Below, one piece after another: positions 1 through 61,325 of a stretch of DNA of 64,000 nucleotides (positions are counted from its first letter, which is position 1; each line of letters starts with the position of its first letter). A program made the position numbers and the translations under genes. The DNA lies in the NCBI GenBank assembly GCA_017471925.1, contig JAFURM010000026.1, forward strand, positions 1 to 64,000, given 5' to 3'. The stretch comes from Bacteroides sp. (GTDB taxonomy: Bacteria; Bacteroidota; Bacteroidia; Bacteroidales; Bacteroidaceae). The notes below the pieces were generated by a model. The model was not told the origin of the DNA and made no database searches. It saw only the letters and a list, made by a program, of their open reading frames with translations.

Positions 1-14
1 TCATTTTCGAGCAG

Positions 15-106
15 ATATACTTCATCGGCCAAGTAATATATACTTCATCGGTCAGGTAATATATACTTCAAGTGCTAACGGATATATACTGCGTTGGCCA
101 AGTAAG
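15..106. repeat. Four-unit 23-bp tandem repeat
   Basis: Four head-to-tail units of exactly 23 bp start at 15, 38, 61 and 84. Each begins ATATACT. Units 1 and 2 differ at only two bases (ATACTTCATCGGCCAAGTAA against ATACTTCATCGGTCAGGTAA); units 3 and 4 are more diverged after the first ten bases. No open reading frame spans them. They could be iteron-like protein-binding sites or a small minisatellite. The window starts too close to tell whether more units lie upstream. Confidence 0.8.
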
Positions 107-450
107 TACTTTGCCTTTTTCAACTAAATTGCAGAAGAGCCATAAAAGAAAGGAATAAATTCAGAACAGGTTCTTACACCGCAACAAAAGAAACCCATTT
201 AATCGGTGTATTTACGTATAGATTTTAACTAAGAAATCGCAGGATTTGCAATTATCTTAGAATTAAACGGAGATTTCGTAATAAGCAAATAATCTGTAGC
301 CCGGCACAGCATCCCATGATTTATCACGCTAAGTCGTCATCATTAGAATTGATAAGGGCAACCGGCTTCTCAGCCCGTCGCCCTTTGTTTCAATCATCAA
401 GAGGAGGAGGTGCGCATAGCGGCACCTTGCCATCGTAATTACACAACTGT
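107..450. other. Intergenic stretch, AT-rich, no gene seen
   Basis: No convincing reading frame was found in about 340 bp. A short GGTGC/GCACC inverted repeat (409-413 with 422-426) sits 25 bp beyond the dps stop codon and could be a weak terminator for that gene on the minus strand, but it lacks a clean T-run. Nothing else was recognised. Confidence 0.4.
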
Positions 451-24303: not shown

Positions 24304-24807
24304 ATCGTTTCATTTGAAACTATCTCCTTTCCCGGCAAGTTTTTCTTTCGTGCAGACTGCGGCGGCAGGTGTCCGACCACCCCTCATCGATCTCCCTCCG
24401 AGCCTTCAACGCTGCAAAGATAGAGAGCCTCCCGGAAACAGAAAAACGTTTTCAGCAAAAGGCGAAAACTATTTGGCCTCCATCCCTCTCAAAAGTTCCG
24501 CCGTTTCGGAGGAACTATTCAAGGAGGAGGTTTCCTTTGCTTTGCTATGCTTTTCTTTGCTTTGCTTTTACCGCACGCGCGCGCGGCTTTGCACTTTTCA
24601 GCGGTTAATTACGCAAATAAGGGGTTATTTTCCGCATTTATCCCCTTTTTTGCAGCATTTTCAGTTTCTGTTTTGAGAGTCTGTTTTGAATTTATTCAGC
24701 CTTTTTATGAGGAGTCTTTTCGAGAGATTTTGTTCGCTCTTCCAAGGAACCAAGAAGAAAAACGACTCCCGCCCACCCCTCCCCGCAAAAGGCGCGTCAG
24801 GCTGTTG

Positions 24808-24891
24808 GACGAGACACGTCCCGTCCGCGGGCCACACACGTATGGACGACGGACGACACACGTATGCTCCAGGCACCACACATGTGTGGCT
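24808..24891. repeat. 22-bp period array, ACAYGT core, locus A
   Basis: Cores ACACGT, ACACGT, ACACGT and ACATGT start at 24814, 24836, 24858 and 24880, exactly 22 bp apart, with GGAC or similar flanks. GGACGACGGACGA at 24844-24856 is identical to 47242-47254 in the second array and lies in the same phase to the core. The array ends 16 bp from the stop of the truncated kinase gene. Confidence 0.7.
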
Positions 24892-24906
24892 GCACAAACA
24901 TGAGCA

Positions 24907-45744: not shown

Positions 45745-46770
45745 TCAATTCAGGTCGAATCGCATCTTCCAGACGTTGTACCAGCCGTCCTTGTTGGCGC
45801 GGTTGGAGAGGAAGAAGACGCTTCTGCCGTCAGCAGACCAGGAGGGACAGCAGTCCTGCTCGGGGTGGTAGGTGAGCTGCACCAGTCCCGTACCGTCAAT
45901 CTTCACGGCGAAGATGTCGAGGTTGTGCTTCTTGTTGATGGTGGAGGTGCTGTTGCCCTGACAGAGAATCCACTTACCGTTGGGTGATACCATGGGGTTG
46001 GTGAAGCCGCGCTTCTTGTCGGAAAGAATCAGCGTCTCCTGGCCCAGAACATAGTTCACCAACCAAATTTCGCTCACGCCGCTGCTGGAGTTGCGCACGC
46101 AGAGGAAGGTGTCGTTCTTGTCGCCGAGGAGGCAGGGATTGTAGCCGCGGGCACAGGAGGTGAGCGAACCGTTTGTCAGGTCGAGCGACCAGATGGAGGG
46201 GCCGGACTTGTCGGTACGCGTGAAGAAGAGCATCGTGCCGTCCTTGCTTACTACCGGATTGTCATCCATATTGTTGCTCGTCAGCTGGCGAATCAAGCTG
46301 CCCACGTGGGCGTTGGTAGAGGCCACCTGCTCAAATTCGCCATTGGCGATGTCGCTGAAATAGAGGTTGCCGTCATTTCCCCAGGAGAAGTCGGAGATGT
46401 GTCTGAAGGTGCGTTGCGTGGCGGCACCCTGTGCGGAAGCCTTGCGAATCATGATGTTCTGCTGCTTGTTGATTCGGCTCATGTAGGCCAGTTCCGTACC
46501 GTCGGGAGAGGGATAGAGCAGACGGGAAGTGTGCCAATAGAACTTGGCATCCTTGCAACCACCGGTCGTGGAGGCGGCAAATGCTGCAGGACGCAACCAT
46601 GCTCCGGTGGAAGGTCCCAACACCGTGTTGGAAGTCTCGTCCGTAATCTTCATCACATTCAAACCGCTCTCTTCGGGAGCATACAAGTCCATAAACTGAC
46701 CACCGCCGCAAGAAGTGAGTACCATGGCCGAAACAGCCATCATGCCAAACAGAATTTTTTTGTTTTTCAT
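45745..46770 (-). CDS. Lipoprotein with TolB/PD40-type beta-propeller
   Basis: A 341-residue lipoprotein with lipobox LTSC (Cys21) followed by three glycines. The mature part is made of PD40-like repeats of the TolB C-terminal/WD40-like type: [39 protein letters not shown] and [13 protein letters not shown], spaced 45-75 residues apart. Such propellers bind partner proteins in the envelope. It is not next to tol-pal genes and is too short to carry the TolB N-domain, so it should not be called TolB. Function unknown. Confidence 0.75.
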
Positions 46771-47278
46771 AAACATATTCAGATACGTGACCTATAGAAC
46801 TCCTCAGATTCGGTCGGTAAAATTAAAAAAAGACGCAGGAGCCTGTGCTTTCGCCCTCTCCCCACTCAACACATGACCGGAATCGAAGAAACGGAGCAAA
46901 CGTCTTTTTTGTTGCTATTCACAGTAAGAACGTCTTAGCCTAATAGGATTAAGATTTTGCAAAGAAAAAGCATTTTATGTAAAAAAGCAAACTATTACTT
47001 AAAAATTTGAGCCTTGGTATCTGATTTTGAGCCGCCTTGAATCGGAAAGCATTTCCGTAACCCATCGCCCACCCCTTTGTGAAGTGTGTCTGAAGGGGGA
47101 AGGAGGGAGAAAAAGAGGGGAATGGATGGGCGCAGCAAGAGCGCGAGAGAGACGAAGGAAAAGGGAAAGCGGTATGGCCCGTGGACGAGACACGTGTGGT
47201 CCGTGGACGAGACATGTATGGACCACGGACGAGACACGTGCGGACGACGGACGAAACATGTATGGACGAAAGGGGCTT
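46771..47278. other. Spacer with upstream region of the lipoprotein and a 22-bp array
   Basis: About 500 bp, AT-rich on the left, purine-rich at 47090-47170 (GGAGGGAGAAAAAGAGGGGA and similar), then the 22-bp repeat array at the right end. No gene and no clean TAnnTTTG element for the lipoprotein were found. Confidence 0.5.
47179..47266. repeat. 22-bp period array, ACAYGT core, locus B
   Basis: Four exact 22-bp units start at 47179, 47201, 47223 and 47245, with cores ACACGT, ACATGT, ACACGT, ACATGT at 47190, 47212, 47234 and 47256. Units read roughly CCGTGGACGAGACAYGTRYG plus two bases. It shares core, period and the phased GGACGACGGACGA with locus A. It ends 12 bp from the stop codon of the next minus-strand gene. 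Confidence 0.8.
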
Positions 47279-47725
47279 TTACTTGAAGAGTCCGCCCAGC
47301 AGGCTGCCGGCAGCACCCTTCAGCGTGTCGCCCAGCGAGGAGCCGCCCAGGGAGGAGAGGATGTCGTCCAGCCCGATACCGTCGCCGGAAGAGGACTTCT
47401 TGGTGAGTTTGTCAATGACCACGGGAATCAGTTTGGTGACTGCAGAGGTGATGGTCGGCGAAAGGCCCAGCTTGGGCGCTACATTGGCGGAGAAGAGCTG
47501 TCCGGCCAGGGCGGAGACGGGGCTGGCGGAGGCACTCTGTCCGCCGGTGAAAAGGGAAGTAATCTGCCCTATGCCACCCTCTTTGGCGGCCGTCTGCTTC
47601 AGACTGTCGAAGATGGAGTCGGAGACGCCGCCCATCACTTGTTCTTTCAGGTTCTCGGGAATGGAGAGGTTGCCCGAAGCTGCTTCGGCCACCTGCTTCT
47701 TGATGAAATCTACCAGTTGAGACAT
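47279..47725 (-). CDS. Small Gly/Ser-rich helical protein, DUF937/YidB-like
   Basis: A 148-residue protein with no signal peptide. The N-terminal 60 residues are helical and charged (L-V-D-F-I-K-K-Q-V-A-E-A-A-S). The rest is rich in Gly, Ser, Leu and Ala, with short repeats such as S-S-L-G-G-S-S-L-G-D-T-L-K and G-S-L-L-G-G-L-F-K. This is reminiscent of DUF937 (YidB-like) proteins, but I am not sure of the family. Function unknown. The 22-bp array lies directly downstream. Confidence 0.6.
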   Translation of the reverse strand: MSQLVDFIKKQVAEAASGNLSIPENLKEQVMGGVSDSIFDSLKQTAAKEGGIGQITSLFTGGQSASASPVSALAGQLFSANVAPKLGLSPTITSAVTKLIPVVIDKLTKKSSSGDGIGLDDILSSLGGSSLGDTLKGAAGSLLGGLFK

Positions 47726-47810
47726 AGTTGTTGATGTTTTTAAGTTTGATTAGGGGGCGAAGATAATAAAAAAGCAGGTCACACAGATAAAACGAGGCCA
47801 AAAAAGTGCA

Positions 47811-61153: not shown

Positions 61154-61212
61154 CGGCGAAAACACCCCCAAGGCAGCGGTCGAACGGCAGCCACATGACG
61201 CCTCCAAACGGT

Positions 61213-61325
61213 GCTCCGGAACAGCGTGCAATTCCTGCCGGAGCTGCGTGCAATAACTTCCGGAATCGCGCGCAGTTTCCCGGAAAACTGCACGCAGAAA
61301 CTTTGGAAACAGCGTGCAATTCCGC
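61213..61325. repeat. 22-bp period array, GCGYGCA core, locus C
   Basis: Five cores (GCGTGCA, GCGTGCA, GCGCGCA, GCACGCA, GCGTGCA) start at 61224, 61246, 61268, 61290 and 61312, exactly 22 bp apart. The better units are dyads of the form GGAA-N2-GCRYGC-N2-TTCC. The period matches loci A and B although the core differs. Confidence 0.8.

Follow-up and report, generated by a model that had tools for sequence, protein, structure and literature searches.

The 64,000-nucleotide window, by which we mean the whole stretch of DNA analysed here, carries at locus B a compact array in which four six-base cores alternate at an exact 22-bp step. The cores are enclosed by two arms that are degenerate at this locus, where family ends resemble TTTATGGCC ... 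GGCCATAAA, and the exact edges given for the element are our choice. The features of the window are as follows.

1..118, no strand: 23-bp array at the window edge, about four copies of a third unit with TRF consensus ATATACTTCATCGGCCAAGTAAT, related to the locus B family only via its near-equal period
24795..24904, no strand: locus A element, same family as locus B, cores at 24814, 24836, 24858 and 24880
47171..47280, no strand: locus B element, four cores and two 19-base arms, the arms compared over 80 ends of 40 copies
47190..47195, no strand: locus B core 1, ACACGT
47212..47217, no strand: locus B core 2, ACATGT
47234..47239, no strand: locus B core 3, ACACGT
47256..47261, no strand: locus B core 4, ACATGT
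47279..47725, minus strand: neighbour gene of 148 amino acids whose stop codon abuts the locus B element; its DUF937 match (22.6 bits) lies below the curated cutoff of 25.4
61208..61314, no strand: 22-bp array whose unit is unrelated to that of locus B (TRF consensus TCCGGAACAGCGTGCAATAACT), the same kind of object by period only

A preliminary description had placed four alternating units of exactly 22 bp at 47179-47266, which is the locus B array in another register. The core positions bear out the period, unit number and alternation, and the array end at 47266 does lie 12 bases away from the minus-strand ORF's stop codon. The likeness to locus A that had been noted in core, period and a phased shared word is also recovered, where both loci have four cores at 22-bp steps and share GGACGACGGACGA at the same offset (8) from the core start. 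A CRISPR had been set aside, and rightly: the units abut, and the between-core segments are variants of one theme common to the copies. Three ACAYGT cores at 22-bp steps match four times in the window (two overlapping matches at each of two loci) versus 0 times in 100 dinucleotide shuffles of it, which places the array far above chance.

The family is dispersed through G000, the genome of the window. BLAST with the locus B array returned 61 matches, merged by us to 40 places, and a genome-wide ACAYGT search of the kind that had been proposed as a check, run with a three-core pattern, gave 56 forward + 47 reverse matches and three further places, versus 0 + 0 matches for the same pattern read backwards. 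BLAST and pattern matches, again merged by us, thus put the family at no fewer than 43 places, 40 of which were fetched for copy-level counts with three left out. Four cores are present in 34/40 copies, five in 4/40 and three in 2/40, where detection by core patterns or BLAST, as used for all copies discussed from G000, G003 and G026, favours copies with good cores. Inspection of 80 ends reveals recognisable but degenerate inverted arms, TTTATGGCC-like and GGCCATAAA-like, on an element that is near-symmetric anyway. With a simple ORF caller, 20 copies fall in convergent gaps, 15 in tandem gaps, 2 in divergent gaps and 3 inside a called frame, as raw counts without a genome background of gap types. 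The expected intergenic placing thus holds for most copies, with 35/40 in convergent or tandem gaps; the three copies inside open frames each lie near the frame's upstream end, and such frames may have been called too early at their start.

Searching 158 genus genomes for the ACRYGT form of the family with up to 3 mismatches gave matches in 3, namely G000, G141 and G148. G141 has 367 + 343 three-core matches in 2.5 Mb, with a related core and different between-core letters, and G148 has 7 + 7 matches, mostly with ACGCGT cores. Loci from these two genomes (L303, L304, L305) are possible drift stages of the window's family.

The reversed control pattern was strongly positive in two other genomes of the genus, G003 (135 per strand) and G026 (116 per strand), which were chosen because they are rich in it. 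The core in both is TGTACA, forming an analogous family with another core. In G003, at least 43 main-family arrays were counted by hand up to 2.69 Mb of 4.25 Mb; among these, as listed, 41 have four exact cores, 2 have three and none has five. Exactly four cores, three intervening 16-mers and CCT...AGG-like ends are present in 36/36 fetched main-family copies, mostly those listed with four exact cores. Another four of the loci fetched have three cores each and represent a different TGTACA family. Four cores are likewise present in 34/37 fetched G026 copies. Gap placing in G003 by the simple ORF caller (23 tandem, 10 convergent, 7 divergent) is again raw, without genome background. Gene neighbours are hardly common to G000 and G003/G026, with 3 matches, in one of which the gene closest to the array on its left is the same in both, and shared chromosomal slots across distant species are too few for a claim. 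Even spacing along the chromosome was also considered and dropped: gaps fit random placing (37 positions in G026; 41 in G003 up to 2.69 Mb). Separately, one locus, L057 (G034:C4:113908-114067), is a homogeneous 22-bp TGTACA tandem with eight in-register cores and nearly identical units, unlike the four-core elements. Two others, L107 and L110, have in common a stretch of 1386 bp (98 percent identity) next to three-core TGTACA arrays that form another family.

Further families have the same geometry with different letters. A third, in Bacteroides sp. 519, gave 52 matches, merged by us to 35 places; among the 20 loci displayed, 9 were readable in one orientation, where 8 had five units and 1 had six. 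These units are of TCCCGGTAGGA type, the last one often inverted, and the three middle positions of their linkers (n=52) are G or C in 45, 49 and 42 cases, flipping freely. The fourth family, in B. cutis, occupies 9 places with four GCCA-N6-TGGC units in 9/9, and complement flips were not seen in its linkers. A 400-kb sample of B. fragilis held 9 places at period 22 versus 0-3 at other periods from 16 to 31. The dispersed family of this species (37 matches at E up to 1; by our merging, about 21 places at E below 0.01) has inverted ends, with three central units in 7/9 and two in 2/9. A second copy of the B. fragilis GGTGCACC array was searched for and none was found.

To find periods irrespective of letters, self-shift counting was applied to 80 named loci around one conserved gene (1.44 Mb). 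This de novo scan gave 57 places at period 22, compared with 12 at 21, 10 at 24, 9 at 23, 6 at 16, and 0-3 at each remaining period of 16-31; period 44, twice 22, gave 27. Period 22 ranked first under five threshold settings, at least one such place occurred in 40/80 loci, and Markov-1 resamples of the scanned sequence gave 0, 0 and 1 places. An other-family sample gave 2 matches at period 22; at 20 contigs and 261 kb it is too small to show that the arrays are restricted to the genus. Simple or coding repeats may account for some of the period-22 places. A dyad test on 66 arrays (the 57 plus the 9 of B. fragilis) reached p<0.05 in 42 and the 0.01 level in 33, and was failed by 24/66, so that the 57 + 9 places need not all be one thing. 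Arrays at neighbouring periods were also seen, with similar AACATGGGGATGTT or AACATCCCCATGTT units at 23 bp (L160, L183, L189) and others at 21 bp (L164, L171, L186).

Comparison of G003 with G026 reveals how individual arrays change. By flank similarity, 27/37 G026 loci match a fetched G003 locus, 17 of them strongly; some of the others are repeats. In 16 four-core ortholog pairs the cores agree at 383/384 bases, a figure partly conditioned by detection, which required near-exact cores; the 16-mers of the same pairs agree at 86 percent (75 percent for random array pairs) and the 50-base flanks at 78 percent, gapped. Changes over whole 16-mers comprise 46 transitions, 47 complement flips and 17 others. 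At positions 4, 6, 7, 10, 11 and 13, 42 changes are complement flips (A-T or G-C) and 2 are others, while the two edge positions show transitions only. That is to say, given the 46 transitions and 17 others over whole 16-mers, flips rule the six inner positions only. Across copies, positions 4, 6 and 7 keep their A/T-or-G/C class in 99-100 percent of cases in G003 and G026 (210 16-mers), and in G000 (102 16-mers) positions 3 to 7 do so in 94-100 percent. We infer that the flips may break up long palindromes without altering the base-pair class, as would suit a reader of shape or of the minor groove. We also considered whether single 16-mers had been inverted between orthologs: 5/48 are closer when inverted, one exactly (L213/L091), and the effect is not general. 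Apart from these comparisons, one G026 array (L287:11430-11750) is interrupted relative to its G003 counterpart (L098) by extra sequence of roughly 140-190 bp.

The reading that we favour, at a probability of roughly 40%, is that the elements serve as double-stranded platforms on which a dimeric protein binds cooperatively, with a motif that varies from species to species. Each element would offer a few quasi-palindromic sites, two helical turns apart on double-stranded DNA, to several dimers of one DNA-binding or DNA-bending protein sitting side by side on one helix face, where a four-core array would take four dimers of one protein. Since the half-sites switch direction roughly every 11 bp, all dyads within an array fall on the same helix face. 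A cooperative protein-binding array had already been proposed in the preliminary description; the exact phasing, fixed unit number, conserved cores and absence of extra pairing fit cooperative binding by a putative dimeric protein. The model rests on the constant period, the family-fixed unit number, dyads in most tested arrays and the mostly intergenic placing, and further on the conserved cores, the base-pair-class constraint between them and folds with no hairpin-pairing excess over rearranged controls. Against a fixed number of four stand the five or six units of sp. 519 and the three or two central units of the B. fragilis family; by family, the number is four in three families and five in sp. 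519.

The protein that reads the arrays would then vary from one species to the next or be retargeted: what is repeated throughout the genus is the 22-bp step and not the sequence, hence a single protein with a fixed motif cannot serve all these species. Against the model, clustering of the genes next to the arrays brought no reader protein to light. One conserved Lrp/AsnC paralog is an unlikely reader, its HTH VSRAAIHQRVQRL being identical in six genomes spanning five array families; a second AsnC-type protein was read in two genomes. The output may be architectural or insulating rather than ordinary promoter control, and the rarity of G000 copies in divergent gaps argues against promoter control in that genome. 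More tentatively still, these families may form one genus-wide class of element in which the geometry of three to six palindromic units at 22-bp steps endures through successive replacements of the sequence in different lineages. Such a class implies fast specificity turnover of a DNA-binding architecture, or else a writer with a 22-bp ruler acting on different starting sequences; the latter is raised because one B. fragilis genome holds both the dispersed family and the array for which no second copy was found.

A serious rival, which we consider somewhat less probable than the platform reading, holds that the arrays are non-autonomous mobile or gene-converting repeats (MITE-like) spread by an enzyme, where the inverted ends and the 22-bp step would be what the enzyme needs and species would differ as families invade and die. 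In favour of such an origin, copies are scattered by the dozen through a genome, the ends are inverted both in G000 and in the B. fragilis family, copy similarity stops near the array edges (median 2-8 bp beyond), and the ACRYGT family is present in only 3/158 genus genomes, its own included. Flanking direct repeats of at least 5 bases are in excess in G003 (9/40 versus 2 in the control) and G026 (7/37 versus 2), or 16/77 versus 4/77 together, where the control lay 200 bp away and its composition may differ; G000 shows no excess (2/40 versus 2). These repeats are, however, short and of mixed length, with no constant length. It also speaks against mobility that orthologous copies have kept their positions and are more strongly conserved than the flanking sequence. 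Nine copies without a listed partner were checked in the other genome: 3 are in place with altered letters, 1 is interrupted, 1 is absent without a clean junction (L206/L284) and 4 gave no clear outcome. Clustering of neighbouring genes brought out just two recurrent groups, an ABC-F-like family at 7 loci and, at 3 loci, an artefact of reading through the arrays. At three other loci (L078, L096, L103), the arrays lie within a flank of at least about 450 bp common on one side, and by eye a terminator-like hairpin with a T run stands just before the arrays of the shared stretch.

That the arrays act as RNA, transcribed into a long hairpin, a hairpin chain or a terminator, strikes us as improbable. 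The units are palindromic, and compared with its dinucleotide shuffles the window array has the more stable fold (z -2.35; 2/200 as good), although palindromic sequence tends that way. The placing of G/C flips at half-unit position 4 of oriented arrays is also non-random (CGGCGG 31, GGCGGG 19 and GCGGGG 6 of 70), h1 being like h4 and h3 like h6 (z about 5). One ortholog pair (L198/L072) shows a compensating change, and 16-mers 1 and 3 are exactly complementary in L288. Selection for pairing would be expected to make the real arrays fold more stably than rearranged controls. Instead, with half-units or 16-mers dealt anew (three shuffle kinds, six shuffles of each), z was +4.6, +1.7 and 0.0 for 70 G003/G026 arrays and +6.6, +6.8 and +5.3 for 34 G000 arrays, where positive values mean that real arrays fold worse. 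T-runs after the array, which a terminator would lead one to expect, occur at 4/80, 14/80 and 11/74 ends versus 0, 6 and 4 in controls (29/234 versus 10/234 in total). No terminator-like site was found at 46700-47800, and Rfam gave 0 matches at gathering scores over the whole window. Pairing was also sought in column covariation and rejected, the strongest G000 signals being flips two bases apart rather than pairs. Least probable is that slippage has produced a neutral minisatellite, mutation favouring 22 bp. This would account for tandem arrays and for unrelated units within one genome, such as the B. fragilis array found once, but not for a unit number fixed within a family, cores conserved in place between two species or units common to dozens of unlinked copies.

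Several known systems resemble the arrays in part. REP/BIME elements are palindromic, intergenic, dispersed and species-variable, as the arrays are, and are hairpin-defined and associated with RAYT transposases; pairing in the arrays, in contrast, is not favoured over rearranged controls, even though the window array beats dinucleotide shuffles. Plasmid iterons are few direct repeats near two-turn phasing, bound by Rep, whereas the arrays occupy dozens of chromosomal places and have palindromic units. Lrp/AsnC octamers wrap phased sites, and four dimers on phased palindromic sites would match four cores; unlike what this leads one to expect, the HTH of the conserved paralog is constant while array sequences change. 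The nearest printed parallel found, as far as the consulted text of its source extends, is the BrickBuilt MITE of Porphyromonas gingivalis, in which a non-repetitive leader and tail, with ends resembling IS-element ends, enclose a 23-nt repeat that reaches 18 full copies in one element (PMC4596501). BrickBuilt elements resemble the arrays in being scattered between genes in the Bacteroidales and in having tandem repeats of similar length, and their inverted ends have a possible counterpart in the degenerate arms of the arrays; unlike them, the arrays have few palindromic units and no leader or tail, a comparison made by description and not by repeat letters. The same text mentions 22-nt tandem repeats in W83 without locating them (PMC4596501). 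The consulted portions of the open-access literature searched (including PMC4596501, PMC5771137, PMC7366714 and PMC2267715) hold no description of such Bacteroides arrays.

If the genus-wide reading is right, the arrays would form an undescribed layer of chromosome elements in a major gut genus, several tens per genome examined, and easily missed because repeat searches seek shared sequence where here mainly spacing is shared. They would then offer either retargeted DNA-binding proteins in a series made by nature or mobile repeats of a new kind, and the question is open to clear experiment in culturable species, B. fragilis among them.
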